Under the pieces are notes generated by a model that made no database searches, had not been told where the DNA came from, and saw only the letters and a program-made list of their open reading frames with translations. Below are positions 3,545 through 50,767 of a stretch of 53,341 bases of DNA, in pieces. A program made the position numbers and the translations under genes. Within the stretch, counting starts at the first letter, position 1, and the number at the start of each line of letters is the position of its first letter. The stretch is from a virus: IMG/VR virus record IMGVR_UViG_3300029922_000090, positions 1-53,341 of that record. One strand, written 5' to 3'.

Positions 3545-3560
3545 CTATTAAATCCAATCA

Positions 3561-11180: not shown

Positions 11181-12821
<1,641 letters not shown>

Positions 12822-14472: not shown

Positions 14473-14889
14473 TTATGCCCCAATGTAGTGATGACCACTG
14501 CATTTGTTGGGATTTTGTATGATTCTTAAGACTTCATAGTCTTTAAGGTCGATGTTGTTAACTGGCTTTCCGTCTGGACCATTGTTGGCATTAAAGACGC
14601 CAGCGTATTTCTTATAGGATACATAGTCGCCAACCTTGGGAATCAAGGTCCAATGCTTGAAGGAATCAGCCTTGAATGCTGCGTCGCCAATCATAAGAAC
14701 ACGACCGTAGCCTATCTGGTATCGGTCACGGTCTTTTGCCGCATCAGGACGCTCAAAGATGGATTCTTCACCGCCGTTGAGGAAATTGTCGCCAGGGCTA
14801 AACGTTTCTACGATTAACCCCCAACCCAGAGGCACCGGGTGATCAATACCCAGAACCTCTGTGATCAAGTCATTTGTTGGAAGATTCAT
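14473..14889 (-). CDS. groES: GroES-like co-chaperonin, 138 aa
   Basis: It has the GroES order of features: an N-terminal strand GWGLIVETF (residues ~22-30), a long mobile-loop region containing NGGEESIF (about 31-58), GYGRVLMIGDA (60-70), PKVGDYVSYKKYAG (84-97) and a closing LKDYEVLRII strand (115-124). At 138 aa it is longer than host GroES (~97) and T4 gp31 (111). The extra length lies at the N-terminus, in the loops and in a Cys/His-containing tail. It would cap the GroEL ring. It lies immediately upstream of the scaffold gene, three genes from groEL, in one operon. Confidence 0.85.
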   Translation of the reverse strand: MNLPTNDLITEVLGIDHPVPLGWGLIVETFSPGDNFLNGGEESIFERPDAAKDRDRYQIGYGRVLMIGDAAFKADSFKHWTLIPKVGDYVSYKKYAGVFNANNGPDGKPVNNIDLKDYEVLRIIQNPNKCSGHHYIGA

Positions 14890-15840: not shown

Positions 15841-18243
15841 CTATTCGGAGTCTTTTGGGGTAATTCCTGATCGGGTGGGTTCGATTCCCTCAATAGGCAT
15901 TCCGCTATTACTCTTCAGGGCAACCTCAAACGCCTTAGCCTGTATAACCATTTCAGCATCTTTAGCTTTTTGCTCAATTTCCATAACGCGAACCTCAAGG
16001 GCCTTCATCTTGGCCTCATATTCCATTTGGACTTTGAAGGCGTCAGACTGTGCCTTTTGCTCATCAGACTTGGCTTTCTGCTCAACAGCCATTTGCTTGA
16101 CCTTCACATCTTCCATCATGACTAAGCCTGGATCAATTGGAGGCGGTGGCTGGTTAGCCTGATTCTCTTGACCCTGTTGGGCAATGACTTGAGCTGCCAT
16201 CATAGCAATTTGATTCTGCATCTCTGGCGGGGTCTGTTCTGCATTCTGCGGAACTTCCATACCCATTTGCTGTTGTATCTGTATCAGGAATTCAAAAGCT
16301 TGATGTTCCATATCGTGAGCTGCCGCAGCCGCTATGACGTGAGGGGGAATATCAGGTTTTGCCATAAGCGATTGAACTATAGTCCTATGAGCCATGTGGT
16401 CTTGGTCAATGTGAGCCTTTACGGGCTTACCATTCATGATATACATATTCTCAGTCACGGGGTCGATTGGCGGCAATTCCTCACGGTTAGGCACAAGCTT
16501 TTTCATCAATGACTCAGGGATTTTGATTTCCTTGATGTAGTTCTCTATTGCCTGGCGTTGATCCATAAGTTGTGGGAACTGTGCCGACAAATCAACGATG
16601 GTCTGGGCCCTCATAAGCCGTTGCATCTTGGTTGTCACATGCGGGTCAGCCACAGGGACTATCTTAATGTTCTCTGAGAAGTCAGCCGCCGAAATGGAAA
16701 TAGACTGGCCAATCGCGTCAATCTGTGCCGGTTCCTCCGGCATGGTCTCCGAAAACAACTTGTAGAATAATTTAAACTCAGTCGCCATGGAGTCACGCAA
16801 TGACCGAATGACTGTCGACTGTACGAGGTTAATTCTATCAAGCAACGCGTATGTAGTCCCTACGGGTGCTGTTGCGTTGAATTCCTGTAGTTGTTGGTTA
16901 GCTGAACCCATGATGCGGCCAGCAGCCATCTCTAGCTCTTTACGCATCTCATTAATGCCAGGGGAAGGTTCCTTGTAAGGCATTAACATAATCGATTGCT
17001 GGATAGGGAGGCCGCCCGTATCGACTGGGATAAATTCGGTTGGGCCTATGCGAATGTTGTTATCTTCAAGCCTCATTCCTTTGACATGCATACCGCCAGG
17101 GAAGTTAGATAAGGTCATACCATCGATATATTGACGTAATAGAGTTGTACAAGCTGCCGCTAGTCCACCGACCATCTGAGCAGCGCCAAGCTTATAGAAC
17201 CCATAACCATCCATATAGCCGTAATCAACATAATAGTCATTACGCTTGTAATCAGGATCCCTTTCAGACCAATTTCGGTATAATGATAATACTTTACGAG
17301 TTTCTTTATGAAGGGTGACTCTATATGGTCTGTAGGTTGATTCTGCGTCAACTTCTTCATCCATAGCCTCCGAAGTCTCGATTTCTTTCATGTCTAAGTA
17401 GGTATGGCATTCGTATAGCTCATAATCGATCTTCTCGTCATAGGCAGGCATTGTCATGCCTTCTATGCGGTCTATGGCATGTTCAAACTCTGTATGATCG
17501 TCTGACTCATCTATGGGCGATATTTCTATATCCCGATAAATGCCCATTTGCATATAGCGTTGAAGCTCAACGGCATTCATCTTCACAACTTCAGTCATCC
17601 GCCAACAGTTCGCGAGTGAGGTAGTTGCATAGTTCACCACGAAATCCTGGGCCTTGAAGAATTTAGACGTTGGCCGTCGAAGGATAGGATCAAAATAGAC
17701 TTTCCTAAAAGACGAACCCGTGAGGCCAACCCATGGAAGCATCTTCTTGAAGTCGGGATAAAATTCTGTGGCTATCTGGGTAAAGTAGTAGTTCGCAAAG
17801 GTCTCAATGAGTTTCGCCTTTTGCTCTAACTCCTCTGTGACATCCCCTATGACCATTTCCTTGACAGGCCCCTCAATCGGCAATAACTCCGCTACGGCTT
17901 GTGCATAGAATTCCGTAATGGATTGAAGCATGACTTGAGAGTAAACGCCGCAAGCATTAACAAATGGAAACTCTTTCTGAGCATCCCACTTGAGACCGAG
18001 CTGTTCCATGGCGGATTTCAGACCCATTTCCCAATCTTTGCGGGATAAATAGTCATCCTCAATGTCATCGAGCAGACGCCCTGCTATCTTGTTGAGAGTC
18101 GTTTCATCAAGGATTTCGGCTAGGTTTTCCTCAAAACTGCCTTCTTCCATTGCCATGGGTTCTTCTTCTATGAATTCTTCTTCATCGAGGATTGAGGGAA
18201 GCTGATAGCCTAGAAGCTCTTGATCATCTTGCATGTTATTCAA
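15841..18243 (-). CDS. Portal protein, P22-like, 800 aa
   Basis: A large podovirus-type portal (P22 gp1 is 725 aa). The acidic N-terminus is followed by a core with WVGLTGSSFRKVYFDP, VDYGYMDGYGFYKLG and a YALLDRINLVQSTVIRSL helix; the core pattern resembles portal proteins that form the dodecameric DNA channel. Residues ~690-780 are a long Gln/Lys/Glu-rich helix (EQKAKSDEQKAQSDAFK and onward), comparable to the P22 barrel that projects into the head. It starts at the ATG at 18243. It is separated from terL by the rightward 18.3-20.4 kb island, which is unusual because terL and portal are normally adjacent. Confidence 0.85.
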   Translation of the reverse strand: MNNMQDDQELLGYQLPSILDEEEFIEEEPMAMEEGSFEENLAEILDETTLNKIAGRLLDDIEDDYLSRKDWEMGLKSAMEQLGLKWDAQKEFPFVNACGVYSQVMLQSITEFYAQAVAELLPIEGPVKEMVIGDVTEELEQKAKLIETFANYYFTQIATEFYPDFKKMLPWVGLTGSSFRKVYFDPILRRPTSKFFKAQDFVVNYATTSLANCWRMTEVVKMNAVELQRYMQMGIYRDIEISPIDESDDHTEFEHAIDRIEGMTMPAYDEKIDYELYECHTYLDMKEIETSEAMDEEVDAESTYRPYRVTLHKETRKVLSLYRNWSERDPDYKRNDYYVDYGYMDGYGFYKLGAAQMVGGLAAACTTLLRQYIDGMTLSNFPGGMHVKGMRLEDNNIRIGPTEFIPVDTGGLPIQQSIMLMPYKEPSPGINEMRKELEMAAGRIMGSANQQLQEFNATAPVGTTYALLDRINLVQSTVIRSLRDSMATEFKLFYKLFSETMPEEPAQIDAIGQSISISAADFSENIKIVPVADPHVTTKMQRLMRAQTIVDLSAQFPQLMDQRQAIENYIKEIKIPESLMKKLVPNREELPPIDPVTENMYIMNGKPVKAHIDQDHMAHRTIVQSLMAKPDIPPHVIAAAAAHDMEHQAFEFLIQIQQQMGMEVPQNAEQTPPEMQNQIAMMAAQVIAQQGQENQANQPPPPIDPGLVMMEDVKVKQMAVEQKAKSDEQKAQSDAFKVQMEYEAKMKALEVRVMEIEQKAKDAEMVIQAKAFEVALKSNSGMPIEGIEPTRSGITPKDSE

Positions 18244-18257
18244 TCAGTTAGAGACAG

Positions 18258-18293
18258 TTGTCTTATTGTAGACAATTTATCAATAAATTTAAA
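18258..18293 (-). promoter_or_regulatory. Putative portal promoter overlapped by a palindromic operator
   Basis: On the minus strand, TTTAAA (18293-18288), a 17-nt spacer and TACAAT (18270-18265) form a candidate promoter for portal. TTGTCT (18258-18263) and AGACAA (18270-18275) form an inverted repeat around the -10. It could be the operator of the RelB-like repressor encoded just to the right. Confidence 0.45.
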
Positions 18294-18342
18294 TAAAAGA
18301 TTTCCCTTGCATTGTCTCTCATTATGTGGTCACAATGGGCCT

Positions 18343-18522
18343 ATGGCTATTAAACATACAATACATGCGCGCATTGATCCTGAGCTTGTCAACGAGGCTA
18401 GAGCAATCTATGACCAGTTGGGAATGACAATTACCCAGGCCATCAAGGTATTTCTGATCAAATCCGTGATGGAAGGTGGCATACCATTTGATATGACGAT
18501 TACGGAGGAAAAGAACGAATGA
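18343..18522 (+). CDS. RelB/DinJ-family antitoxin-like protein, 59 aa
   Basis: It matches the DinJ/RelB ribbon-helix-helix pattern: a short beta strand HTIHARIDPEL, helix VNEARAIYDQLGMTITQAIKVFL, then a tail with GGIPFDMTI (DinJ has a comparable LPFDLR). Such proteins bind a cognate RelE/YafQ toxin and autorepress as DNA-binding dimers. The next gene overlaps it by four bases (ATGA) but does not look like RelE, YafQ or HigB. It may be an orphan antitoxin that neutralises a host toxin, or half of a different pair. The ATG at 18343 is the last one before the conserved region. Confidence 0.8.
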   Translation: MAIKHTIHARIDPELVNEARAIYDQLGMTITQAIKVFLIKSVMEGGIPFDMTITEEKNE

Positions 18523-22022: not shown

Positions 22023-22233
22023 TTTGTTTCCTTTCTAGTTCGTCAATTCTCATTTTTAATTGTCTTGTTGTTAAATCAGCACTCTTAAGCCTATCAAGTG
22101 TTTCAGCTCTTATCTTAAGGAGTGGAGACCATTCCCTTTCGAATGAATCCATTCTATCGTTTATTAATCTGAATCTCCCGTACACGGTTAATGCAAAGAT
22201 ACCCATTAACCCCCATATGATAACCTCAAACAT
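21925..22233 (-). CDS. Membrane-anchored coiled-coil protein (i-spanin-like), 102 aa
   Basis: One N-terminal membrane helix (VIIWGLMGIFALTVYG) followed by a charged coiled coil (RLINDRMDSFEREW... to ...MRIDELERKQNEKD) and a Cys/His-containing tail. This is the architecture of phage Rz-type inner-membrane spanins. Its ATG at 22233 overlaps the terL stop (TGATG). The partner gene is nested in its 3' end. Spanin function is inferred from architecture only. Confidence 0.6.
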   Translation of the reverse strand: MFEVIIWGLMGIFALTVYGRFRLINDRMDSFEREWSPLLKIRAETLDRLKSADLTTRQLKMRIDELERKQNEKDHTFDAFCKHYNIDHKDCRYGDTPTGTKP

Positions 22234-24926
22234 CAATAAAGTGCTCTCTTTTCTTTATAGGGTGATCTTATGACTTCATCGTCAGGATTACCGATAGCAC
22301 CATTGCTCATTAGTTTTATCAAGGCTTGACTCATGCTGTCAACATCGTCGTTGCTTTCATCATTGGGGAAAAGCAAGCAACTTTGAAGAAATTCTGCCGC
22401 GTAAGGGACAAGAGAGGTAAAGTTTGGCCCTCTTGCTGGCAACCAGACCCTACCGGCCTCCAGAATACTCGTACACAATCTCAGCCGCGCTACTTTGTCG
22501 CCCATGTTCTTATTGGGGTCGAACCGATTAACAATCAATCCCGCGCGGTTCAAGTCTTGTATGAGCGATAGACCATTAGCCTTTGCCTCAACAAGTATCA
22601 TGTGAGGTCTTAAGATGTAATCCTCCGGTGCGGGAACATCGTAGCGTGTGTCATAGATAAACCTGGCAAGCCTAATAGCCATACGCCGTAGGTCTGGATA
22701 TTCTACACGACCACGCCACCGTGAGGCCAAGATAACATGTGAGACGCCATGCTGGTCTTTAAAGACTCCCCATGTCGTACAGGTACTATAACAAGCCGTG
22801 GGTTTCGTACTTAAGGCTGTATCCCAACTCTGTAATAAAAATTCAAAGCGTGGCTTTTCGGGTTCCTTCCACCACTGGAACCATTCTTTCTTGATGATGC
22901 CGCCTTCTTGCGGTGATGGGCTTTGCTGCAATTGACCCGACACAACGTAAGGGTCGTTCATTTCAGCCTTGAGAGATTCTAACTCCTTTTCACCGATACG
23001 AGCTGGCCATAAGAGTTCGCCTTCATCTTTCCGTGGGTCACACCAAGGTTTACCATCGGTACCAGGCAAAGGTACCGTGAAACATTTTCGGCTAACATCA
23101 AATTCCATAGGTAACATCAAATGTACAAGGTCAGGCAAATCCTTATCTAGCACATGGCCCGTGTAGTCTTGAGCATGTAGCCTTTGTTGTACGATTATTA
23201 CGCGACCCGTTTTTTGATCATTAAGACGCGTACTTAGTGTGAAATCTGCCCACTCATTTGTTCCCTCGCGCTTAACATCGCTCATCACATCGTGGGCATT
23301 GTTCGGGTCGTCAAGTACGATAATGTCTGCACCATCACCAGTTACGCCACCACTCCCCACAGATGTTGCGATCCTATGTCCACTCTTGTTGTTGTCAAAC
23401 CTGGTCTTGGAGTTCACATCACCGGCAAGTTTGAACTTATGGCCAAAGTGTTGTTGAAACCAATAAGAGTCAATGACACGTCGACACTTGACGCTATCCT
23501 TTATGGCAAGCTTGGCAATGTATGAGATGTAAAGAAACTGTAGCTCTGGGTTTTTGATCCAGCACCAAATAGGGAAGGCAACAGATACCAATGAGCTGTT
23601 ATGAACTATCAAATCATTTGCTGTGAATGTGCCATCCTCTTCAATTTCGACGCAATAACAATGCACTAATCCATTTTCTTCAATAGAAACGATTTCGTCT
23701 GGCAATATAGCATTATCAAAATTGTGTCGGATAGATGATTTATCTCTAATCTTTTGGCCCTTTGCATGATGAACAGGGATTAGCCTATTAAAATGATACA
23801 TGTCATCTTGATCACGCAAATCTAGAACGTAGCTGATGTACTTATCGCCTTGTTTTTTCGTTTTGATGTTGGAAACTTTTGTTCTTATCTTTGATCGAAT
23901 GCCTAGACGCTGAAAAAGATGTTGGCATTGTTCAAGTATTTGTTTACTGACACTTGAAATGCTTATAAGAGCGTCCCCCCTTCCAGGCCCTTTATTTTCC
24001 ATGCACCCATCACACGCAAAATAGGCCCCAAGAAAATTTTGTATAGTCTTAAAGTCACCCTTCATTACCTTCTCAGGTACCAATTTTGTATAAGAGTTTT
24101 TATCAGATATACCGTGATTCCTCATCCAATCCCGAACACTTCTAGTTCCTGCTGATAAACACGCCCTTGTTAGGGTTTGGCAATGGTGAGATGGTTTGTT
24201 CTTCATGTCATAAGATTGAAACTTTATTACAAAGCCTAATTTCTTACAGCAAATCTCCAAATCTTCCTTTTCTATTTCATCAGATACCGTTATGACTGCG
24301 GAGTTTCCAACCAAACAACCATCACCAATAAGATAACCCATCAATCTAGCTTCTTCAGGAAGTAAACATTCCCCAAAGTCATGAGAAGGAACTGAAAGAC
24401 CCAACACATCCCGAACTCTCAAATCTTTTGCCTCAACCCATCCACAAGGGGTCAGAAATGGATGATCAAGAGCAGCGACAACCTCGCGACCTCCAAACGT
24501 CTTAATCTTAATAGTTGGCAATATACCTTGATCAAATTTTTGAAGGACGCTTTTGAATCTACCTTTGCCTGTAAGAACCCTATCTCCAACGCAGATATCT
24601 TTAATTTTAACGCGAGTGGCTTTATCTGTTAGTAATAAGGTGTCCTCACCTACAGGCTTACCACAACGCGGAGGGATGTTGATTATGAGCTTTCGTATCT
24701 CTCCACGATAGACGGCCTCTAGGTGGTCGCAAATAGCGTCTATGTGCCAATTAGGGCTAAAGTCCCTAGTTCCCTCAAGGATAGGCCATATACGCTCTAG
24801 GAACGTCTTTAATGATGCCTCACAGGCTCTAGCCTCATCAAGGACGCTTTGATCAACGGAGGGCTGATACGCACTCAGTCGCTCTGTCATATCGCATAAG
24901 TTCTTAAGGGCTAGGTTATGTCTCAT
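22233..24926 (-). CDS. terL: Terminase large subunit interrupted by an intein, 897-aa precursor
   Basis: The packaging motor ATPase/nuclease. The N-extein ends IINIPPRCGK (81-90). The C-extein resumes at S444 with SSLVSVAFP, so splicing restores the Walker A motif PPRCGK-SS. Walker B is DIIVLDDP (D539, D540). The C-terminal nuclease has QSWDTAL, ILVEAKANG and a terminal acidic cluster (DVDSMSQAL). The spliced protein would be 544 aa, normal for the family. The ATG is at 24926; the TGA overlaps the spanin-like gene. The unspliced protein cannot bind ATP, so packaging depends on splicing. Confidence 0.93.
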   Translation of the reverse strand: MRHNLALKNLCDMTERLSAYQPSVDQSVLDEARACEASLKTFLERIWPILEGTRDFSPNWHIDAICDHLEAVYRGEIRKLIINIPPRCGKPVGEDTLLLTDKATRVKIKDICVGDRVLTGKGRFKSVLQKFDQGILPTIKIKTFGGREVVAALDHPFLTPCGWVEAKDLRVRDVLGLSVPSHDFGECLLPEEARLMGYLIGDGCLVGNSAVITVSDEIEKEDLEICCKKLGFVIKFQSYDMKNKPSHHCQTLTRACLSAGTRSVRDWMRNHGISDKNSYTKLVPEKVMKGDFKTIQNFLGAYFACDGCMENKGPGRGDALISISSVSKQILEQCQHLFQRLGIRSKIRTKVSNIKTKKQGDKYISYVLDLRDQDDMYHFNRLIPVHHAKGQKIRDKSSIRHNFDNAILPDEIVSIEENGLVHCYCVEIEEDGTFTANDLIVHNSSLVSVAFPIWCWIKNPELQFLYISYIAKLAIKDSVKCRRVIDSYWFQQHFGHKFKLAGDVNSKTRFDNNKSGHRIATSVGSGGVTGDGADIIVLDDPNNAHDVMSDVKREGTNEWADFTLSTRLNDQKTGRVIIVQQRLHAQDYTGHVLDKDLPDLVHLMLPMEFDVSRKCFTVPLPGTDGKPWCDPRKDEGELLWPARIGEKELESLKAEMNDPYVVSGQLQQSPSPQEGGIIKKEWFQWWKEPEKPRFEFLLQSWDTALSTKPTACYSTCTTWGVFKDQHGVSHVILASRWRGRVEYPDLRRMAIRLARFIYDTRYDVPAPEDYILRPHMILVEAKANGLSLIQDLNRAGLIVNRFDPNKNMGDKVARLRLCTSILEAGRVWLPARGPNFTSLVPYAAEFLQSCLLFPNDESNDDVDSMSQALIKLMSNGAIGNPDDEVIRSPYKEKRALY
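23598..24656 (-). mobile_element. Intein with LAGLIDADG homing endonuclease inside terL, 353 aa
   Basis: It spans residues 91-443 of the precursor. Splicing blocks: N-terminal PVGEDTLLLTD... with VGDRVLTG, a B block with ALDHPFLTPCGW, an F block VHCYCVEIEEDGTFTAN and C-terminal DLIVHN followed by Ser. Two LAGLIDADG-like motifs (LMGYLIGDG at intein residues 105-113; FLGAYFACDG at 208-217) mark a homing endonuclease. The first residue is Pro instead of Cys/Ser, and the B-block Thr is Ala. Insertion is exactly between Lys and Ser of Walker A. Confidence 0.9.
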
Positions 24927-24960
24927 GCCTCATGTTAGATTATTGACTGACTGATTACAA

Positions 24961-25044
24961 TCAACGTCTCGCCACTGCCAATGATATTAACGTCACTATG
25001 AGCCCTACTAGGACGAATGCTATAGCCCCTTGCGTTGCTGTCAT
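24961..25044 (-). CDS. Membrane microprotein upstream of terL, 27 aa
   Basis: A peptide with one membrane helix and a basic end (MTATQGAIAFVLVGLIVTLI, then SLAVARR). AGGG lies about nine bases before its ATG at 25044, and it is about 40 bases downstream of a good promoter. Too short for routine gene calling. The hydrophobic/positive layout argues it is real. Confidence 0.5.
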   Translation of the reverse strand: MTATQGAIAFVLVGLIVTLISLAVARR

Positions 25045-25092
25045 TTAGTCATCCCTAGGTAATGAGTTATTCCTGTGAAAGTCTGTTCCCTA

Positions 25093-25121
25093 TTAATACC
25101 AACATGTGATCCCATTGTCAA
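25093..25121 (-). promoter_or_regulatory. Sigma70-like promoter P1 for terL transcript
   Basis: On the minus strand, TTGACA (25121-25116), a 17-nt spacer and TATTAA (25098-25093). Confidence 0.65.
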
Positions 25122-25126
25122 CCCAA

Positions 25127-25155
25127 ATGTTATGGTTCATAAGGGGTATAGTCAA
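25127..25155 (-). promoter_or_regulatory. Sigma70-like promoter P2 for terL transcript
   Basis: On the minus strand, TTGACT (25155-25150), a 17-nt spacer and TAACAT (25132-25127), in tandem with P1. Confidence 0.5.
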
Positions 25156-25191
25156 AAGTGATTTGGCTCTGTTGAGCCATTATCACTTGAC
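25151..25191. repeat. Imperfect hairpin upstream of the terL promoters
   Basis: AGTGAT and ATCACT plus GGCTC and GAGCC pair around a TGTT loop. It overlaps the -35 of P2, so it could be an operator or the end of the upstream transcript. The rest of the 25045-25328 gap shows no gene. Confidence 0.5.
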
Positions 25192-25328
25192 TACTTACTC
25201 AGTTTTCACCGGGAAAACACTTCACTTAGTCGTTTTAGAGGTCTTTTTGAGGGGTATTTTAGAAGAAACTGAGGTTTAGAGCCATTTAGTGTCAAAAAAC
25301 ACGGGGTTTATAGATTTTGAGGTAACTT

Positions 25329-25436
25329 CTAACCTTCGATCATCATTATTGCAGCTTTTAAATGGAAATTGATCTGTTGAAGGCATAATTCGATATCCTC
25401 ATTATATGGCGATGCTAATTGCGGAATTGTTCTCAT
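25329..25436 (-). CDS. Possible small protein, 35 aa
   Basis: It reads MRTIPQLASPYNEDIELCLQ then QINFHLKAAIMMIEG, an amphipathic helix after a short polar start. It overlaps the 33-aa frame. There is no ribosome site of note; kept as a candidate because the composition is protein-like. Confidence 0.3.
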   Translation of the reverse strand: MRTIPQLASPYNEDIELCLQQINFHLKAAIMMIEG

Positions 25437-25503
25437 GTGAACGAATGTAATAGGAGGCTATGTATTGCTCTATAACCTGCTTGTAGGTCTCTTTAGCATT
25501 CAT
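25402..25503 (-). CDS. Possible 33-aa peptide coupled to terS
   Basis: Its ATG overlaps the stop of the TerS-like gene as ATGA, the same coupling used by the neighbouring genes. The sequence (MNAKETYKQVIEQYIASYYI...) is helical. No family is recognised. Confidence 0.35.
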   Translation of the reverse strand: MNAKETYKQVIEQYIASYYIRSHENNSAISIAI

Positions 25504-25967
25504 ATACCAGCCTTAGTTAACTTAGCCTCTAGGTCATTCATCCTTTGGTCTATAACGTTAGTCTCAAAGGTTTTTCTATAGACTTCAACAATAGCAGCTA
25601 CACTCATTCCCTCATCAGGAGTTAGATTACCCGCTGCTACTTCATTAGCGATATTAGCCATAACATCACAAGCAGTGGTCATATCTTCTATAGGTGGGAT
25701 ATCTAATGTAATAGGTCTTGTCTTAGGATTAGGGTATAGCTTATCCATAATGATTCTTATAGCTTCTATCTTACCTGCAAGAGCTTGCTTGAGTAATACA
25801 TCTACAACGCCCTTAGATGCATCTTCCATAATCTGAGCCATAAGTATTGTTGCTTTTGATCTAGACCCCGGAGAACGGCCCTTACCAAAGCTGTGACCAG
25901 GTAAAAACCTACCTTTTTCATCCTTGCCATTTTTTGGGGGATTCGTGATGGCCTCATCTACACTCAT
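25500..25967 (-). CDS. Terminase small subunit-like (DUF5681-type) protein, 155 aa
   Basis: The N-terminal segment KDEKGRFLPGHSFGKGRSPGSRSK, then a helical region with IMDKLYPNPKTRPI, is the DUF5681 pattern found upstream of many phage terL genes. The C-terminus has a helical AAIVEVYRKTFE region like small-terminase oligomerisation domains. It would bind pac DNA and deliver it to TerL. It overlaps the upstream gene by ATGA. It is separated from terL by a 570-bp promoter-containing gap. Confidence 0.7.
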   Translation of the reverse strand: MSVDEAITNPPKNGKDEKGRFLPGHSFGKGRSPGSRSKATILMAQIMEDASKGVVDVLLKQALAGKIEAIRIIMDKLYPNPKTRPITLDIPPIEDMTTACDVMANIANEVAAGNLTPDEGMSVAAIVEVYRKTFETNVIDQRMNDLEAKLTKAGI

Positions 25968-26455
25968 GATAACCCTTCTATATTTCTGATAATTTGGTTT
26001 ATATCTGTACTCTTTATATAAATAATACCCTGTTCTTTAAATTGTTGTTGCTGGGCTGATAGCTTGTGGATTTCAGCAACCGAAAGTTGCTTCTCGATAA
26101 CGTCAGCATATATGATCAAATGGACCTTATCTTCTGTTACCTTAGAAAAGGGATTGAAGCCATTCTGATTGAGAACCTGGGTAATCTGTCTATTAACCAT
26201 CTTGGTTAGGATTACATCATGTTGCTTGCCTAATGAATCCCTACTCTCAAAGGCTAATAACCTAATCCCTGGGATCTCTTGTAGCCTCTTGATCAAGCAA
26301 GTGAGCTGATCCGCTTTCAACGCTTTAGCGTTTGCAGCGTCACGCTCTCTTTTTGTGATAACCTTTGGCCTCTTTGCCTTTAATGCCGGTATGTGAATAG
26401 GATTACTAGCATCTTTCACTCTCAGCTCTAAAGTTTTTGTGGCTACTTCAATCAT
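25964..26455 (-). CDS. Hypothetical protein, 163 aa
   Basis: A mixed alpha/beta protein. The N-terminal part is basic (KAKRPKVITKRERD). The middle has IPGIRLLAFESRDSLGKQHD then HLIIYADVIE, and an Ala/Gln-rich helix follows. It is not recognised. It ends in ATGA overlap with the TerS-like gene and so belongs to the same transcript; a packaging accessory role is possible. Confidence 0.65.
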   Translation of the reverse strand: MIEVATKTLELRVKDASNPIHIPALKAKRPKVITKRERDAANAKALKADQLTCLIKRLQEIPGIRLLAFESRDSLGKQHDVILTKMVNRQITQVLNQNGFNPFSKVTEDKVHLIIYADVIEKQLSVAEIHKLSAQQQQFKEQGIIYIKSTDINQIIRNIEGLS

Positions 26456-26532: not shown

Positions 26533-26667
26533 TTAGACTGCCTCCCCTCTCGGATTCTTTAAAGACTGTAACCCATTAACGTTAATCAATCGCATCTCGT
26601 CTATCTGTGCCCATAGCCTTTCACTCAATGCCGTGTTACCCCTAACTTTGGGATTCGCTTTTGACAT
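26533..26667 (-). CDS. Small protein, 44 aa
   Basis: It starts at the ATG at 26667 with AGGA upstream, overlapping the previous stop as TAATG. A longer frame to 26742 is inside the previous gene. Sequence MSKANPKVRGNTALSERLWA... is basic, then helical. Function unknown. Confidence 0.5.
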   Translation of the reverse strand: MSKANPKVRGNTALSERLWAQIDEMRLINVNGLQSLKNPRGEAV

Positions 26668-26918
26668 TATGTCCTTTTTTCTATCTGAACAACACCAACC
26701 ATAGCATTTCCAAAAGCTTGCTGTTCTGCTGGGTTCTGCCATTCTTGAGGTTTCACCCCCGATAACACCGCAATGTTTTTAAGAGATGTTGCCAAATCCG
26801 CAAGACGAAACTTCATTGCCGGATTATGCTTGCCTCCTGTAGCCTCACTCATAAGAAGGTCGTAATCAGCAATCATCCTCTTTAGGATCACCTGAAAGGA
26901 ATTCAGATTTTCACTCAT
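26667..26918 (-). CDS. Hypothetical helical protein, 83 aa
   Basis: Two predicted helices (FQVILKRMIADYDLLMSEAT; FRLADLATSLKNIAVLSG). No motif. It overlaps its upstream neighbour by ATGA, in the leftward transcript that starts near 28.2 kb. Confidence 0.6.
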   Translation of the reverse strand: MSENLNSFQVILKRMIADYDLLMSEATGGKHNPAMKFRLADLATSLKNIAVLSGVKPQEWQNPAEQQAFGNAMVGVVQIEKRT

Positions 26919-27496
26919 TCCTTAATCCCCAACTCTTTCAGACACTCCTCACGAGATCGGCCCAACAAAATTCTTTCGCAATGTATGATGTTGTAAGCTA
27001 ACCAGAAACTCTGAGGGTTGTTAGCGTAGTCAATGCCCTCGTTTGTCTCAGCCCAGTTCTTGAAAGATGTTTCTTTACCCGCCTTAAAAAGCTTTTCTGA
27101 ACCGAAACCCTGGTCTTCATACCAAAACAAAAGACCAGCTTTGCCGCCCTGCAATAATATACTTGTGCGCGTAGCCTGGTCTGATGACCAGTTACGCTTC
27201 GTGAGCGAATGGTTATATATAAACCTTTGACAGGGTGGAGTTTCTTGTCTGTCTATGTATTCCTTATCAATGAAACATAAAAGAGGATCATGATATTTTG
27301 TAATCCTATCACCAACCTGCTCATTCGATGGAGAAGGTTTAATTTCCCACTTCCCGGTCATGTAGGGCAAATCCGTCATGTGAACCTTCTCTTGATTCAT
27401 ATACATCAAAAACTTTAACTCATCTGCCGTGTAGTTTTCATGCTTACCCTGCATAATCTTCAATGCCTCATCAAAGCAATACATCTCTATTTTCAT
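26915..27496 (-). CDS. Hypothetical protein, 193 aa
   Basis: A mixed alpha/beta, aromatic-rich protein with no recognised motif (segments YMTGKWEIKPSPSNEQVG, SILLQGGKAGLLFWYEDQGF, SFWLAYNIIHCERILLGR). It overlaps both neighbours by ATGA, so it is tightly coupled to the alphaCTD-like gene upstream. Function unknown. Confidence 0.65.
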   Translation of the reverse strand: MKIEMYCFDEALKIMQGKHENYTADELKFLMYMNQEKVHMTDLPYMTGKWEIKPSPSNEQVGDRITKYHDPLLCFIDKEYIDRQETPPCQRFIYNHSLTKRNWSSDQATRTSILLQGGKAGLLFWYEDQGFGSEKLFKAGKETSFKNWAETNEGIDYANNPQSFWLAYNIIHCERILLGRSREECLKELGIKE

Positions 27497-28194
27497 TTGC
27501 GGAACTCCAAGCCAACCTTATCTAAATGCTGCTTAATCGCCTTCAAACTTAGCGGCCCAAAGTTCCATAAATCTAACATCTGTTTTTCTGTCCTTTTCAC
27601 CAAATCACCATAAGTCAAAATATGAGCATGCTTTAAACTATTAGTAACTCGCGTCGCTATCTTCATATCTTTCATACGACCTTGAACCTGCTTGCGAAAC
27701 GTCTTGGTCTCATAAGGAATCTTTTTAGGGAGTAACTTTTGCCTTTCCTCATCCTGAATAACGTTCGAAATCGGTTCTATGAAATCCCATGTAAGATTAT
27801 CTTGTGGTGTCTCAGCGTTAATGTGCTGTTCCATCGCAACCTCTAATGGCAACTCCTGCTCTACCATGTTCTCAGTCTTTAAACCCATCCTCTTTAAAGC
27901 CTCTGCTACGGTTAATGTCGCAAAAGCAGGAACCTCGTGGCCAATGCCTGTCGTTGACTCAACTTTCAGCTCATCAACATATTTGGTGCCGTAAAACTCA
28001 CCCTCAGCACATTCAATCTCATGCTCTCTCATCAATTGCTCACTCGCAGCAACTAAAGGGTGATATTTCTTTTTACGCGCCTCTTGCTCATCTCTCATTG
28101 TACAAAATATCGGAAACAATTTCCAGTCATCCTGTTCAAATTTAAGGATATTTTTCAATCTTTGATACGCGCTCTCGTAAAATTTTAACTTCAT
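27493..28194 (-). CDS. Protein with RNA polymerase alphaCTD-like C-terminal domain, 233 aa
   Basis: The last 55 residues follow the RpoA C-terminal domain: ATRVTNSLKHAHILTYGDLV, KRTEKQMLDLWNFGPLSLKA, IKQHLDKVGLEF. Against E. coli the DNA-contact residues R265, N268, G296 and S299 correspond to R182, N185, G213 and S216; K298 is replaced by Leu. The N-terminal ~175 residues are unknown. The alphaCTD binds UP elements and activators. This protein may therefore redirect or mimic host RNA polymerase recruitment. It is the first gene of the leftward transcript, next to a divergent promoter. GGTGAG precedes the ATG. Confidence 0.75.
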   Translation of the reverse strand: MKLKFYESAYQRLKNILKFEQDDWKLFPIFCTMRDEQEARKKKYHPLVAASEQLMREHEIECAEGEFYGTKYVDELKVESTTGIGHEVPAFATLTVAEALKRMGLKTENMVEQELPLEVAMEQHINAETPQDNLTWDFIEPISNVIQDEERQKLLPKKIPYETKTFRKQVQGRMKDMKIATRVTNSLKHAHILTYGDLVKRTEKQMLDLWNFGPLSLKAIKQHLDKVGLEFRK

Positions 28195-28251
28195 TTTATC
28201 TCACCATACTAATTAAACTATCTTAATCAACTTATAAATAATCGGCCATTA

Positions 28252-28295
28252 TGTCAACATTTATCTTGACACTATGACCTAGTTTGTGTCATTAT
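28252..28295. promoter_or_regulatory. Divergent early promoters with a shared palindrome
   Basis: TGTCAA (28252-28257) and TTGACA (28266-28271) form a palindrome whose two arms are outward-facing -35 boxes. Rightward: TTGACA, 18 nt, CATTAT (28290-28295). Leftward: TTGACA with a TATAAG at a short 15-nt spacing. A second inverted repeat, TGACAC (28267-28272) with GTGTCA (28286-28291), lies between the rightward -35 and -10. Confidence 0.65.
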
Positions 28296-28317
28296 GTCCT
28301 TAGAAAGAGAGGATGCG

Positions 28318-28548
28318 ATGAAAACACTAAAGCACTATCTAGACGAACTTGGTATCTCAGCCACCGTGGCTGCTAAATACCTAGACGTATCACCCCGAAC
28401 CTTCCGTCGCTGGCTCAGTGGCGAATCACTCATCAAGAGGTCTGTATTCCATACCCTTGACTCATGGTGCCGCTTCAAAGAAGCTGGCCTAAAATGGGAA
28501 CCCGAATGGAAAAACATGGCAGGAGTAAAATTAGATGAAGATGTCTGA
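28318..28548 (+). CDS. HTH regulator (Cro-like candidate), 76 aa
   Basis: A helix-turn-helix is visible in LDELGISATVAAKYLDVSPR followed by TFRRWLSGES, the usual pattern of small phage XRE-like repressors. A frame from 28294 exists, but that ATG lies in the predicted -10. The ATG at 28318 has GAGAGG five bases upstream. As the first gene after the divergent promoter it probably regulates that promoter. The C-terminal part is Trp-rich (DSWCRFKEAGLKWEPEWKN). Confidence 0.7.
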   Translation: MKTLKHYLDELGISATVAAKYLDVSPRTFRRWLSGESLIKRSVFHTLDSWCRFKEAGLKWEPEWKNMAGVKLDEDV

Positions 28549-30037: not shown

Positions 30038-30071
30038 TTTAATTACCTAAAATTTGTGTATAATTTTATGT

Positions 30072-30440
30072 ATGATAACTATCAAGCTTCCCTATCCCCC
30101 CTCAGCAAACAAAGTCTGGCGCACCGGCCGTGGTGTGACTTTCCTTTCTAAAGAGGCTACAGCGTTCCGTAAGGAGGTTGCGCTAGTCATGCTAGGGTTA
30201 TCTCTCCAAGAGCGCTCAGAGATGCCTTTCTGTGATGCCTTGACGGTCTCTATAAGGGTATATCCCCCGGACAAACGACGACGTGACATTGATAATCTCT
30301 TGAAACCGACCCTCGACGCCTTAGAACATGCTGGGGTTTATGTGAATGACAACCTGATTGAATGTCTGACGATCAAGCGCCTTGATGTCGCTAAACCTGG
30401 GTTTATTGAGGTCGATATCTTTCCTACTCAAGACCTCTGA
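30072..30440 (+). CDS. rusA: RusA-type Holliday junction resolvase, 122 aa
   Basis: The RusA pattern: a start with LPYPPSANKVWR, then RRRDIDNLLKPTLDALEHAG and VYVND. Acidic residues D72, D74 and D93 and K78 match RusA D70, D72, D91 and K76. It resolves recombination junctions and debranches DNA before packaging. The ATG at 30072 fits the family length; an upstream frame at 30054 is unlikely. Confidence 0.92.
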   Translation: MITIKLPYPPSANKVWRTGRGVTFLSKEATAFRKEVALVMLGLSLQERSEMPFCDALTVSIRVYPPDKRRRDIDNLLKPTLDALEHAGVYVNDNLIECLTIKRLDVAKPGFIEVDIFPTQDL

Positions 30441-35768: not shown

Positions 35769-36062
35769 ATGATGAAAACATTTTGGAAAATCGTTAACTG
35801 GAAACTTCTACTCGCTCTTGTTCTTGCCGTCGCGATGCTGTTCGGCCCCAAATGGCTTGGGCGCGATATTATGACCTTTGAGCGCGTGATGCAGCTGCCC
35901 GTGATTGACCTCAATGGTGAAGCCGAGGAAGAAGAAAAGCCAGCGGTTAATAATTCTCATACGCTTGTGTTGCCACTGCCGCCTAAGTGTGAATGCGCAC
36001 CAAAATGTCCGTGTGATTTGAATGATGTGATGAAGGCAGCTAGTCAGCTTCGATCAACGTAG
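35769..36062 (+). CDS. Membrane protein beside endolysin (holin candidate), 97 aa
   Basis: One N-terminal membrane helix (LLLALVLAVAMLF) after a basic/aromatic start, an acidic linker (EAEEEEK) and a Pro/Cys-rich tail (LPPKCECAPKCPCDL). ATGs at 35769 and 35772 both exist; AGGAGG spacing favours the second. Position suggests holin or another lysis factor, but the single span and Cys-rich tail are not typical of one class. Confidence 0.6.
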   Translation: MMKTFWKIVNWKLLLALVLAVAMLFGPKWLGRDIMTFERVMQLPVIDLNGEAEEEEKPAVNNSHTLVLPLPPKCECAPKCPCDLNDVMKAASQLRST

Positions 36063-36520
36063 CGCAACTGATAGCCCTGAGATGTCGTACACTCAATCAA
36101 CAAGTTGGTCTTTTCTAGCTCATCCCTGAGCAAGCTTATCTGAACACGCAAAGCATTGAGGTTCGTTTTTTTAGGAAATGAAAGGTTGTCGATGTGGTTA
36201 AGCAATTTAGCATGACTCACGATTTTATCAAAATTCATGGCTAGTCTGTAGAACACCATGGTTTGTGTCTTGCCGAGGCGAACTTTCCAGCCGTTGCCTC
36301 GGATGTATCTATCAGCCGGATCAAAGGTGAAACTCTCCTCGACTATAGGCAAGAACTCCTTGGTCTCCAGGATTGCCGCAAACAGGTCGCTGTTGGCTTT
36401 TATATCGCCAGGACTACATAAGTAGTAGATCTCCTTCAGACGTGTCTCTAGAGCCTTTATTTCGCGTTTAAAGCTAGGCTGCTTTTCGCTAGAGACGTTC
36501 GACGAGATATTGTCCGGCAT
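36044..36520 (-). CDS. Winged-helix (OmpR/PhoB C-terminal type) regulator, 158 aa
   Basis: The C-terminal half follows the OmpR effector domain: a GWKVRLGKTQTMVFYRLAM strand/helix, KIVSHAKLLNHID, NALRVQISLLRDELEKTN as recognition helix, and a wing TTSQGYQLRY. The N-terminal half is helical and is not a receiver domain (no phospho-Asp pattern). It is a free-standing DNA-binding protein, probably a phage transcription regulator. It converges with the lysis genes by a 19-nt overlap and diverges from the next HTH gene. Confidence 0.7.
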   Translation of the reverse strand: MPDNISSNVSSEKQPSFKREIKALETRLKEIYYLCSPGDIKANSDLFAAILETKEFLPIVEESFTFDPADRYIRGNGWKVRLGKTQTMVFYRLAMNFDKIVSHAKLLNHIDNLSFPKKTNLNALRVQISLLRDELEKTNLLIECTTSQGYQLRYVDRS

Positions 36521-45123: not shown

Positions 45124-47504
45124 GGGTACACATCCCCCGGTGCGTAACTCAAGAGAACTTTACCCATTTGGTAGTTGCCCCCTAAAGTATTACTCTCGAA
45201 TCTATAGCTAATCAAACGGCCCATGTTAATCATATCTATTTTTGATAATAAGACTGTCGTTTGACCCGGTATAAATGTATAAGGTGTAGATGCCTGTACT
45301 GTTGTCTGTGCAAAATGCCGGGAATTAACCGTCACAGTCATGTTTCCGGTCATGACAAAGTCAGGCTCTAAACGCCTTATTCTCATCTGCCTATCGTTCT
45401 TTACATCGCTGTCGAAGAAGGCTGTCAGATTCGTTTCAAAATACGAGTCGATCGCTTGGTTTTGACCATAGGCAACTTGGTCTGTCCCGACTTCGTGGGT
45501 CCATATCGCATAGGTTAGATTCGATGTAAACGTCATCGTCGCTGGCGTGTTGCCACCCCCATTAGCTGTCGATATAGCTAAAGCAGTCGCATTGTAGGTC
45601 AAAGTCGTTGGGTCAACGATAGTGACGGGAGCCAATATATTCAAATCTGCGGCTGGAATGCCTCCTACAGTCAGGATATTGGCAAATATGACCAAGTCTC
45701 CGGTATTGATGCCGACAGTTGAGGGAACCGTCACCGTTACCATGAAAGAGTTAATGTTAGTCTGAATAGGGTTATTAGCCAAATTCACCGTTGTCGTGGG
45801 GTGCGGCGCAAATTGATTTAGAGTCCTATTGGAATCAGCCATGATGGGGTATTGATAGAACCCAGGCGGAACACCTGCGCTACGGCCAATGACAGAATCA
45901 AACCAGAAGCCACCCTTCTTGTTATACATAATGGCGGCATTGCATTCTAGGCTTCCCAATGTCGGGTAGAACCACCAGATTTCATCATCCAGAGGTAGGT
46001 ACATGCCCCACACTTTGGAGCGAACATCCCAGTTGAGGTTATCGAAGAAATAGTCACGGCTCATGACGTTATCGAGCTTCTGGACAACACCGTTATAGAC
46101 ATAGAACCGATCAAGACCAATCCAGTAGAATTCGTTATCGACTGTCACAACACAATTAGCTGACATGATGGTTGTATTGGCTTGGATGGTATCGAAGTTG
46201 AATGTCGACGGCTGGCCAACGAAGGTACATCTTATGACGGAATTGAGAGACCAAAAGAGAGCCGCAGGGGCATTAGAGCCGCCACGAGTTACTAAACCCT
46301 TAACAATCTTGGTACCAGCTACAGGGAATGCAATAGCATCCGACCAATCTCCGCCCGGACGGAGTGTCGCCACAACGACGCCATCATTTCCATATTTCAT
46401 TAGGTAGGGACCGACCGTGACAATACCGCCCGAAGTTTTCTGGAAAGTCGTCGAAATCTGTGCAAGAGGAGTCGTTGCTCTCACGTCTCCCCAATAGATA
46501 AGGGATTCAATGTTGTTATTGATATCAGTTGCATTCGGAGGAGCTACAGCGACGATATAAGTTGCGGAACCGGCAACAACATATATGACAGCCGCTCCGC
46601 CGCCAGCGAATGGACCACCGCCAGCATTCACGGGGATGATATACGAGAATGTCGTTGGGCCAAGAATCGTAATGGGGGCGGTAATATTGAATTGGTCGGC
46701 TGTCACACCGTTAAAACCAACGGCTCCATAGATTGTTATACTCTGGCCATTAATCAGACCAGAAGTTGTGGGAACTGTCACAATAACGACATTAGATGCA
46801 TTGGCCGTTAATAAAGGATCAACTCCTAATGCAACAGGTGAGAAGGAAGGCGTAAAGGTACCATTGGCGCCTCCGCCAGCTCCTACTCCCACAGCAGCCG
46901 CACCAGTCGTGACATAAGTGAATTGAAAAGGGTTCCCAGGGACCAAAGTTATGGGTGCAGTGATATTCAATTGATCAGTTGTGAGAGTGTCCACAGGGCC
47001 AACGATTCCCTGAATCGTTACATAGTCATTGTTTTGTAACTGACCATTTAAAGGATTCAATGTCGTGACTGTCACGACATGGCTTCCTGCCGATGTCGTT
47101 ATAGCAGTGGCCGCATTCAAAGGTAGGGGGATAGCACCAGAGAGAACCGTGAAGAGATCAAATGTCCATTGGTTATTAATATTTGGGACAAATCCAACGG
47201 GTGTTCTCGTAAACTCAGGTCCAGCAAGTCCCGGGGCATTGTTGAGCTGTATGTTAACAACCTCAAGGGAAAAGGGTCGTCCCAAATATACATCAATCGT
47301 ATTTTGTTTTGAGACCACATACATGTTGCGCACAAGCTCAGTAGATCCCGGACTCGAAAGCGTATATCCCCCAATCTTACGAGGCTTATTGAGATAGAAA
47401 CGGCACCATTGACCATCAATATAGTTATCGCGGTCATATACGGTTCCATCCCTGGCAATGCCAGGTTTGGAGCCGATAACGCCTATGATGTGGTCAATTG
47501 CCAT
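45120..47504 (-). CDS. P22 gp10-like tail closure/packaged-DNA stabilisation protein, 794 aa
   Basis: The N-terminal pattern GSKPGIARDGTVYDRDNYID, GQWCRFYLNKPRKIGGY is that of the podovirus head-closure proteins. The middle has beta-sandwich repeats (LNITAPITLVPGNPFQFTY, FNITAPITILGPTTFSY, LNILAPVTIVDPTTLTY) that look like inserted decoration domains. A propeller-like region with WSERD/IMYNKKGGFW-type strands follows. It would plug the channel after packaging. It is 794 aa against ~470 in P22, the excess being the beta repeats. Confidence 0.75.
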   Translation of the reverse strand: MAIDHIIGVIGSKPGIARDGTVYDRDNYIDGQWCRFYLNKPRKIGGYTLSSPGSTELVRNMYVVSKQNTIDVYLGRPFSLEVVNIQLNNAPGLAGPEFTRTPVGFVPNINNQWTFDLFTVLSGAIPLPLNAATAITTSAGSHVVTVTTLNPLNGQLQNNDYVTIQGIVGPVDTLTTDQLNITAPITLVPGNPFQFTYVTTGAAAVGVGAGGGANGTFTPSFSPVALGVDPLLTANASNVVIVTVPTTSGLINGQSITIYGAVGFNGVTADQFNITAPITILGPTTFSYIIPVNAGGGPFAGGGAAVIYVVAGSATYIVAVAPPNATDINNNIESLIYWGDVRATTPLAQISTTFQKTSGGIVTVGPYLMKYGNDGVVVATLRPGGDWSDAIAFPVAGTKIVKGLVTRGGSNAPAALFWSLNSVIRCTFVGQPSTFNFDTIQANTTIMSANCVVTVDNEFYWIGLDRFYVYNGVVQKLDNVMSRDYFFDNLNWDVRSKVWGMYLPLDDEIWWFYPTLGSLECNAAIMYNKKGGFWFDSVIGRSAGVPPGFYQYPIMADSNRTLNQFAPHPTTTVNLANNPIQTNINSFMVTVTVPSTVGINTGDLVIFANILTVGGIPAADLNILAPVTIVDPTTLTYNATALAISTANGGGNTPATMTFTSNLTYAIWTHEVGTDQVAYGQNQAIDSYFETNLTAFFDSDVKNDRQMRIRRLEPDFVMTGNMTVTVNSRHFAQTTVQASTPYTFIPGQTTVLLSKIDMINMGRLISYRFESNTLGGNYQMGKVLLSYAPGDVYP

Positions 47505-49897
47505 TATGTTACATCCGCATCAGCTGTATAGTGAATACACATAAGGTCCCCAATCGCGCTGGCAGCATTTCCAACGGAATCAAAAGTAAATCTCTTAGTT
47601 GTTGACATCTGAATAGCGGTTGCTCCCATAGCTACGTTCGCTGTCTTATCCCAAGCAAGGGCGTTAGCCGCAGCTGGGTTAAATAATGTAATATTAGGAA
47701 CAACCCTCATGTCATAAGGATAATCAAAGGTTGTCGAATGGTTATTTAGGGCGCCCGCATGACCTATTAAACAACATATTTCACCGGTATTAAGGCCAGC
47801 GTTCTGTACGGGTAAAACCCCATATTCGAACGACTTGTTGTAGAAATATTTACAGCTGACCAGCTCATCCTGATAAGACCGTCTATCAAATGGTGTCTGA
47901 ACAGGACTTACCTCAAGCTGAACATCCGTGATAGCGAAATAGTCGTTGATCCCCGCAACACCCGTAGGAGTGTATGAGAACACAACGCCCAACATGGTTG
48001 TGAACCCTGATATAGCCGCACTACTGAAAGTGAAGTTAGTTAAGGAGTTTGGATTGAGAGGGTTCAAGACAACGTTTTGATTGATGACCGTTGCTTGGCC
48101 TACGAATCCTGTGGAGAGGAACGAAACGTCAACAAGACCGGTACCTGTAACAACTTGCACGTTCAAGACGTCTCCAGCTGATGAATAAGTCGCTCCACAT
48201 GTCGCCAGAAAGCTTATGGTAATAATGTTTCCAGCAGACGCATTTGACATGGATTGGGTCAATGATGTCCCAACTTGAACTGGTGTCACGTCAGCTGAAA
48301 GAGCAATTCTTTGTGCCTTAAGAACCCAGTTATGGCCAATAGCTCCAGCAGTCTCAAGAATCGCTATTTGGTTAAGTCCACCTGAACATTGCCACCTGTC
48401 TGCCGCATAGATCCAGACACCAGCACCTTGTGTTAAAATGTTGATGTTTGCAGGGCCTGATCGTTGCCAGATCTGGAAGTCACCATTGAGAATTCGGTTG
48501 CGACCTGGCCTGGTTCCATAGGTAATCCAGGAAGGATAAGCAGCGGCACCGCCAGAGATTAATATCTCACCAACGTTACCAGAGTTACCAATGGGTGTAA
48601 TAGGGCCATTCAATACAGGGGGGCCAGCAAGCAATTGAAAAGGTGTCAAGGCTGGGTCGTTAGCGCCAACGTTTCCCCAGTTGGGCAGAGCACCTGCACC
48701 AGCAGAGATGAGAACTTGACCAACGGTTCCGACACCGGCTACGTTCTGTAATGGGCCTGCTGCCACCGTTCCACCTGTAATGACCGCGTATGGTGTGAAG
48801 GCTGCAACGCCTGTTCCACCACCAGCAACCGGTATAGGCAATCCATTGTTGGCACCAACGATGTACATTTGTACGCCATCAGAGTAAATGATATAACTTC
48901 CACCGATTGGGACAACAACACCTATTCCCCCTAGAGGTTGAGCTGTAACCGTAAATCCTCCTGGGGATATCATGTTGTTGAAAACTTCCCAGATTCCTGG
49001 TTGTGCCGGGAAAACGATGGTCGTGTTCTGATTCAATCCACCAGCCGCTATGAATTGAAGAATATTAAAGGATGCTTGAGCTGCGGTTAAGGTAACAATA
49101 CCCGCAACTTGGGCTATCTGAATATCGAAAGGAGGAAGCAACGCCGTTACTGCTGATAAGCTCCTTTGACCAAATCCAAGAGTGTTCCAGCCATTTTGGT
49201 CCGCAATGAAGTATGATGAGGTTCCTCGAATCATTGGCCAAGTGGCTACGCCATCGATAGTTGACCCATCCGGTGTGGCAACTGTGACGATTCCACCACC
49301 TTCGTTATTAACAGCCAAATAGAAGCCTACACCAACACCAGCCGCAGCTATAGGTGGGAGCGTAATAGTGCCTACGCCGCCAGTCCAGACAAGAAGGAAA
49401 GCCCTATCGTTCGCAGTAGCGGCTGACGTTGCTGGTACATTTCGGCTTGGGAAGTTAGAGACCAACAAGTTGTTAACGATATTGAGGCCGTTTCCAACTA
49501 AACCAATGAGGTTAACGATGTTGTTACCGGCGCCAAAGGTGATGACGTTCCATGTGCCCCCAATCGTTGCCGTTGTATTCAACCAGAAATAATAGGCAAT
49601 TCCTGGTGTGCAGACTTGTAAAACCAACCCAGTATTATCAGTCACGCTAAAGTTGTTAACACCTGTGTTGAGGACAAGAAAGTCTTCACCAGGTGAAACT
49701 GTATTAGAGGCCGCTGGCATGATCAAATTGAGGTTGATGTTGGTTGCGTTCACATTCATGATACGGGCCACAACGTTGGTTGTATCAATAAATGATGTTG
49801 GCCATTCCAGAGAAACGTTTGCGGCCATCGTAATCGTTCTGAAGGCCACATTAGAGGGTTGGACGGGCGAGCCACCAAATATATTTGTATATGCCAT
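47504..49897 (-). CDS. Large tail-fibre protein, 797 aa (type-A C-terminus)
   Basis: The N-terminal ~470 residues are beta-rich with no motif except short Gly/Asn repeats. The C-terminal ~310 residues form the type-A module RNRILNGDFQIWQRSG, YAADRWQ, FDRRSYQDELVSCKYFYNKS and terminal HYTADADVT, shared with the 459- and 460-aa paralogues. NGDFQ-WQR modules of this kind are common at fibre ends in phages and are probably receptor- or glycan-binding. The ATG at 49897 follows the adaptor gene by 2 bases. Confidence 0.8.
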   Translation of the reverse strand: MAYTNIFGGSPVQPSNVAFRTITMAANVSLEWPTSFIDTTNVVARIMNVNATNINLNLIMPAASNTVSPGEDFLVLNTGVNNFSVTDNTGLVLQVCTPGIAYYFWLNTTATIGGTWNVITFGAGNNIVNLIGLVGNGLNIVNNLLVSNFPSRNVPATSAATANDRAFLLVWTGGVGTITLPPIAAAGVGVGFYLAVNNEGGGIVTVATPDGSTIDGVATWPMIRGTSSYFIADQNGWNTLGFGQRSLSAVTALLPPFDIQIAQVAGIVTLTAAQASFNILQFIAAGGLNQNTTIVFPAQPGIWEVFNNMISPGGFTVTAQPLGGIGVVVPIGGSYIIYSDGVQMYIVGANNGLPIPVAGGGTGVAAFTPYAVITGGTVAAGPLQNVAGVGTVGQVLISAGAGALPNWGNVGANDPALTPFQLLAGPPVLNGPITPIGNSGNVGEILISGGAAAYPSWITYGTRPGRNRILNGDFQIWQRSGPANINILTQGAGVWIYAADRWQCSGGLNQIAILETAGAIGHNWVLKAQRIALSADVTPVQVGTSLTQSMSNASAGNIITISFLATCGATYSSAGDVLNVQVVTGTGLVDVSFLSTGFVGQATVINQNVVLNPLNPNSLTNFTFSSAAISGFTTMLGVVFSYTPTGVAGINDYFAITDVQLEVSPVQTPFDRRSYQDELVSCKYFYNKSFEYGVLPVQNAGLNTGEICCLIGHAGALNNHSTTFDYPYDMRVVPNITLFNPAAANALAWDKTANVAMGATAIQMSTTKRFTFDSVGNAASAIGDLMCIHYTADADVT

Positions 49898-49899
49898 AG

Positions 49900-50547: not shown

Positions 50548-50550
50548 ATT

Positions 50551-50757: not shown

Positions 50758-50767
50758 TTTTACCTCC

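Follow-up and report, generated by a model that had tools for sequence, protein, structure and literature searches.

Phages are known to act on the C-terminal domain of the RNA polymerase alpha subunit (alphaCTD) either by modifying the host domain or by binding it through activators, and DNA binding by the alphaCTD is part of promoter recognition by RNA polymerase. Arg265 of this domain is crucial for the contact with the UP element, and it is this residue of the host alpha that is ADP-ribosylated by Alt and ModA of phage T4 (PMC2988021).

An alphaCTD may also be encoded by the phage. Such proteins are already named in databases, and the combination as such is not new. In Bacillus phage Goe8, a gene among the first ones along the genome encodes a protein (QDP42789.1) named RNA polymerase subunit alpha, with a second copy in the record, in which an N-terminal part of about 145 aa is followed by the alphaCTD. 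This N-terminal part is related to a protein of phage SBSphiC, which was matched without an alphaCTD, and the pair would fit the capture of an alphaCTD by a pre-existing gene. In Ruegeria phage V16, the domain is joined to a protein for which one record gives the annotation pyrophosphatase; Microbacterium phage Mazun carries an alphaCTD by sequence match; and in BFVD, proteins of uncultured Caudovirales phages, Rhodococcus phage Finch and Mycobacterium phage Mithril are named for it.

Two profile scans added 20 other IMG/VR contigs with PF03118/alphaCTD matches, several of them near-identical. The viral proteins that were read are non-RpoA proteins of varied layout: the alphaCTD stands almost alone in 86 aa (L048), is combined with an RNA_pol_L remnant (L050), precedes DUF3310 (L062) or is placed between DUF6891 and Sigma70_r4 in one chain (L053:1586-2497, with the same protein in L056 and L059), and in the remaining ones it is joined to partners without an assigned family. 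The L053-type fusion unites the polymerase parts recognizing the UP element and the -35, and a DNA polymerase-like ORF was seen by eye near its gene. Judging from the neighboring ORFs, several phage alphaCTD genes lie near early or replication-type genes. Some apparent cases were discarded: MT839982 is a bacterial rpoA contig with a rplQ-like ORF following, and the MD-2021a matches are rpoA genes on large contigs. Overall, alphaCTD-bearing phage proteins are numerous, widespread and varied, as opposed to the rarity implied when the locus described here was first read, and a search of the open-access literature turned up no experimental work on an alphaCTD encoded by a phage.

The alphaCTD gene of the window and its product

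The window, i.e., the whole stretch of DNA analyzed here, comprises the 53,341 bases of a single virus record from IMG/VR, in which no tRNA genes were found. Its CDS at 27493..28194 (minus strand) encodes a protein of 233 aa and has an ATG start with a Shine-Dalgarno-like GGTGAG 5 nt upstream. The sequence-only reading had this ORF ending in an alphaCTD, which was borne out by Pfam, by PDB matches and by superposition of the predicted model (see below). PF03118 (RNA_pol_A_CTD) matched residues 169-225 (27520..27690, minus strand) with 44.5 bits against a cut-off of 23.8 (E = 1.3e-11), and the single other Pfam match of the protein was noise (E = 0.13). Among PDB sequences, RNA polymerase alpha chains exclusively were matched at E <= 0.14, the highest scores being 30.6 bits for 9zum and 29.5 bits for the alpha of a mycobacterium.

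The alphaCTD sits within the helix-hairpin-helix class, if the latter is broadly taken, which would leave room for a chance resemblance or a generic helix-hairpin-helix likeness. However, PF03118 was the sole Pfam family to pass its cut-off, and no helix-hairpin-helix family was matched. With a profile of 14 other alphaCTDs, from which the 233-aa protein was left out, the real sequence scored 63.3 bits; when its C-terminus was shuffled 10,000 times, the highest score was 10.5 bits. Moreover, the top fold matches in the PDB were all RNA polymerase alpha chains. Chance or generic resemblance is effectively refuted, and the C-terminal domain, judged by its sequence, is a true alphaCTD. A short alphaCTD-like family of NCBIfam (NF005841/PRK07758, a 95-aa 'hypothetical protein') matched residues 180-232 (E = 2.1e-5), albeit with 24.8 bits against a curated cut-off of 115, which places the 233-aa protein outside it.

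AlphaFold gave no fold with the single sequence (mean pLDDT 34). In a second model, for which the alignment rows were 13 alphaCTD fragments from viral contigs, residues 170-233 reached a pLDDT of about 95, and the ten-residue means of the N-terminus stayed below 70 up to residue 160. The modeled C-terminus superimposed on most isolated alphaCTDs with an rmsd of 0.7-1.0 Å over about 64 residues, and the TM by target was 0.79-0.93 against isolated alphaCTD chains, e.g., 9zum, 1z3e and 1lb2_E. The 50 best Foldseek matches listed from the PDB were RNA polymerase alpha chains exclusively, and the Caulobacter alphaCTD bound to AT-rich DNA was among the matches. The predicted fold is thus that of an alphaCTD and not of a different kind; since the alignment was itself made of alphaCTDs, the model confirms the assignment but does not independently prove it.

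The N-terminal part (residues 1-165; 27700..28194, minus strand) has no detectable relative. It found no match in Pfam, PHROGs, NCBIfam, PADLOC, 50,697 phage records or IMG/VR except for one contig, which has 7,205 bases in common with the window at full identity, and none among the ORFs of the window's relatives; the early description of the N-terminus as unknown was well founded. For the whole 233-aa protein, the genome contigs held no relatives and the defense-system models gave no match. Homology between its N-terminus and that of the next gene's product was rejected (hhalign probability 0.15%).

The protein is not RpoA. Neither RNA_pol_L nor any other N-terminal Pfam domain was matched, the full-length rpoA models, whose cut-offs are 228-523 bits, gave no score above 50.4, and with the alpha N-terminal domain missing, it cannot serve as a polymerase subunit. 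A captured and decaying rpoA fragment, devoid of function, would account for the confinement of the gene to a single phage lineage and for the NCBIfam rpoA alignments, which reach back to residue 112 and weakly suggest an RpoA-like linker. We consider such decay very improbable, as the 233-aa frame is intact, with a Shine-Dalgarno sequence and a 4-nt overlap with the next gene, and the key residues are retained while the RpoA N-terminal domain is absent. A linker remnant from residue 112 on was also rejected by itself, since the extended pairwise alignment to Francisella alpha2 gave no convincing residue matches.

In layout, the window protein resembles the Goe8 protein and the phage proteins of IMG/VR (L045-L062, L090 and L091) in which the alphaCTD sits on a short non-RpoA protein. 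Its N-terminal domain is common to no other phage alphaCTD protein except that of the identical contig, and it did not match the N-terminus of Goe8. The window protein adds to an annotated, uncharacterized group of phage alphaCTD proteins, with an orphan N-terminus.

The alphaCTD of the window shares 34-39% identity with the sampled cellular RpoA, including the Caulobacter domain on AT-rich DNA (PDB 9zum) and that of E. coli (3n4m, 3n97, 1lb2), in comparison to 28-35% with most phage copies. With the solved domains it has in common the predicted fold and, in E. coli alpha numbering, the equivalents of R265, N268, G296 and S299, which are R182, N185, G213 and S216 of the phage protein; the alignment confirmed that these four DNA-contact residues, named in the sequence-only reading, are retained. 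The equivalents of K271 and D259 are kept likewise. As opposed to the cellular domain, the phage one has K298L, E302A and E261K, and the alpha N-terminal domain is replaced by the orphan phage N-terminus. C269 is conservatively changed to serine. Of the activator-facing positions, TE (285-286) is kept, and 287-288, V and E in E. coli, are K and Q. The UP-element contact set of E. coli alpha comprises R265, N268, C269, G296, K298, S299 and E302; that K298 and E302 are not kept speaks for a weakened or altered DNA binding. The contact set for sigma region 4 comprises D259 and the acidic E261, and E261K argues against an ordinary contact of this kind. Binding to sigma region 4, proposed in the sequence-only reading next to that of UP-element DNA, is therefore doubtful, albeit D259 is kept.

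The divergent junction and the phage genome

The alphaCTD gene is, as originally placed, the first of the leftward set and stands opposite a rightward gene for a small HTH regulator-like protein (28318..28548, plus strand). For the latter, the ATG at 28318 is a likelier start than the listed one at 28294, since 28294 falls within the promoter -10 and GAGAGG precedes 28318. With this start, the divergent intergenic region spans 28195..28317 (123 bases). An imperfect inverted repeat (28244..28279), with 17-nt arms that are 76% complementary and 2 nt apart, spans both divergent -35-like TTGACA boxes, which face outwards, and CATTATGTC is present at 28247 and again at 28290-28298. The rightward promoter-like site, TTGACA-18-CATTAT (28266..28295, plus strand), has its CATTAT at 28290-28295 with TG before it. 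The leftward one, TTGACA-15-TATAAG (28231..28257, minus strand), precedes the alphaCTD gene and has 11/12 matches with a short spacer. Both are consensus matches alone, and a scan of 8 kb found 17 such sites in comparison to 15.1 (sd 3.6) in shuffles. Of the claim that the gene lies beside the main divergent promoter, the divergent position holds, whereas the promoter sites are no commoner than in shuffles. The operator half-site CATWRTGTCAA occurs 6 times across the window, where 4.8 occurrences would be expected, and is not enriched. As a layout, the junction would suit a repressor closing both directions.

From the alphaCTD gene on, the leftward genes overlap tightly. The next one (26915..27496) shares 27493-27496 with it and is followed by 26667-26918, 25964-26455 and 25500-25967 (all on the minus strand). 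The last of them encodes a DUF5681/terminase small-subunit-like protein, whereby the DUF5681 match is weak and the likeness to a terminase small subunit is one of position, before the terminase gene at 22233-24926. This terminase gene (minus strand) encodes a large terminase split by an intein, which contains an endonuclease domain of the LAGLIDADG type; judged by length, related phages have terminases without the intein insert (e.g., 3915-5558 of G016). Between the terminase gene and the small-subunit-like one, there are about 570 bases (24927-25499) with no listed ORF of at least 60 aa and with one terminator-like hairpin (25164-25179). On the other side of the junction, the HTH gene is followed by genes for an Erf recombinase, SSB, RusA, a replication initiator-like protein and the DnaB helicase.

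Several further genes of the phage were recognized. A GroEL of 545 aa (11181-12818, minus strand) has 51-58% identity to the copies in related phages, and a conserved protein of 138 aa (14473-14889, minus strand) is GroES-like by eye, with no Pfam match. A RelB-type antitoxin-like protein (18220-18522, plus strand; PF04221, E = 1.2e-9) is followed by a protein of 180 aa that is conserved in related phages and gave no Pfam match and no recognized toxin. Several repeat-rich tail-fibre-like genes lie at 334-5792 and 47504-53305 (minus strand). Blocks of one recur, in several phages, in the relatives of another, which suggests module shuffling.

No phage sigma factor was matched in the genome by a search that detected its controls, and no phage RNA polymerase by a search run without a positive control. 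Because neither was recognized, the host polymerase is a plausible partner. Its involvement, as first proposed, gains from this result. The transcription switch factor of the sequence-only reading is weakened by the leftward set, in which the genes run towards one for a terminase small-subunit-like protein and not towards regulators.

The phage gene at 36044-36520 (minus strand) encodes a protein in which a winged-helix DNA-binding domain of the OmpR/PhoB type was matched (Trans_reg_C, E = 4e-8), with the receiver domain absent. In bacteria, domains of this type frequently contact the alphaCTD or sigma 4. The presence of this gene, together with the TE stretch and the core fold kept in the phage alphaCTD, would agree with a decoy that titrates activators of the host (or the phage) and closes activator-dependent host promoters. 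Activators of the DriD type bind the alphaCTD weakly, at about 30 uM (PMC12340889), so that a further copy of the domain could compete. We regard a decoy as improbable, since it would have to be highly abundant, 287-288 are K and Q instead of the V and E of E. coli, and retention of the DNA-contact residues would be unnecessary.

Related phages and the probable gain of the gene

Related viral records were gathered by portal and capsid searches. In G002-G005 and G016, the portal is about 50% identical to that of the window phage, and the capsid is 80-88% identical. No alphaCTD match was found in them or in the more distant relatives examined, several of which are fragments, and since it is absent from all relatives examined, the gene is not needed by the phage group. 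In three of the relatives (G002, G004 and G005), which have homologues of 26915-27496, a RusA-like gene precedes that homologue. The window has its RusA homologue at 30054-30440, and the alphaCTD gene fills the RusA slot of these relatives. The simplest reading would be that the gene was gained in the window's lineage along with the divergent junction.

The occupation of this slot in three phages by RusA, a Holliday-junction resolvase, bears on what the protein may do. The alphaCTD could be a compact minor-groove DNA-binding module in an accessory protein of replication, recombination or packaging, with no role in transcription. The translational coupling to genes leading to the terminase small-subunit-like protein and the Erf and SSB genes across the junction point in the same direction, as do the fusions of the domain to an annotated pyrophosphatase in V16 and to DUF3310 in L062. 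However, the gene is located at a divergent regulatory junction and not within the replication set, and in RNA polymerase, DNA binding by the alphaCTD serves promoter recognition. An accessory function of this type is possible, albeit on balance unlikely.

Among cultured phages, those with the most similar portals (24-34% identity) have Pelagibacter, Roseobacter, Caulobacter, cyanobacteria and others as their hosts. An alphaproteobacterial host, which the sequence-only reading had assumed, seems plausible from these matches, but the claim is weakened by cultured phages with related portals having cyanobacterial and gammaproteobacterial hosts besides alphaproteobacterial ones. The capsid-like protein had no relative among the genome contigs. 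Fragments with 99.8-100% identity to the window (L002, L004, L005, L006, L065 and L066) came from several IMG metagenomes, one of them being 12.3 kb at 100% identity; the phage recurs across samples nearly unchanged.

A putative phage transcription factor and its known counterparts

The most likely function, at a confidence slightly below even, is a role in transcription via minor-groove/UP-element binding. The 233-aa protein would be a phage transcription factor with the alphaCTD fused to a phage-specific N-terminal part and would be expressed early from the divergent region. Its alphaCTD would grip the AT-rich minor groove upstream of promoters, and the N-terminal part may provide contacts to a partner or for oligomerization. 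It might then be a surrogate alphaCTD with which the host polymerase is helped to bind phage promoters, or it might compete with the polymerase's own alphaCTDs and deprive them of UP elements; the effect may be activation or repression.

The transcription role is supported by the alphaCTD sequence and predicted fold, with R265, N268, G296, S299 and K271 kept, by the divergent junction with its inverted repeat over both -35-like boxes and the adjoining HTH gene, and by the lack of a match to a phage RNA polymerase or sigma factor. Several other phage alphaCTD proteins that adjoin early or replication-type genes or bear transcription domains (DUF6891-alphaCTD-Sigma70_r4) support it as well, as does the place of the Goe8 gene near the start of its genome, with a second copy. 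On the other side, both classical interactions of the domain, with DNA and with sigma, could be weakened by K298L, E302A and E261K, and no relative of the N-terminus gives an independent clue. The role is weakened further by a gene set that ends at a terminase small-subunit-like protein and forms no clear regulatory cassette, by the absence of the gene from relatives and by the leaning of the fold model on an alphaCTD alignment. It is in this tentative sense that we infer the 'transcription switch' of the sequence-only reading.

On a broader scale, phages may repeatedly have acquired the alphaCTD of their hosts as a mobile module, variously fused, thereby re-aiming the host RNA polymerase via takeover of UP elements by a surrogate or competing domain. 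This generalization is speculative, and we hold it to be rather doubtful. If true, the window protein would represent one independent capture at the main divergent promoter of its phage, and its most extreme form would be seen in the DUF6891-alphaCTD-Sigma70_r4 fusions of other viral contigs. The 233-aa protein would also offer a simple system for asking whether a factor outside the polymerase can capture UP-element recognition. The target step, alphaCTD-dependent promoter use, is presumably common to the phage alphaCTD protein, to Alt/ModA of T4 (PMC2988021) and to Rac of phiKMV (PMC7552054). As opposed to these enzymes, through which the alpha subunit of the host is modified or comes to be cleaved, the window protein is a copy of the domain, and a phage supplying its own alphaCTD would take a different route to the same control point.
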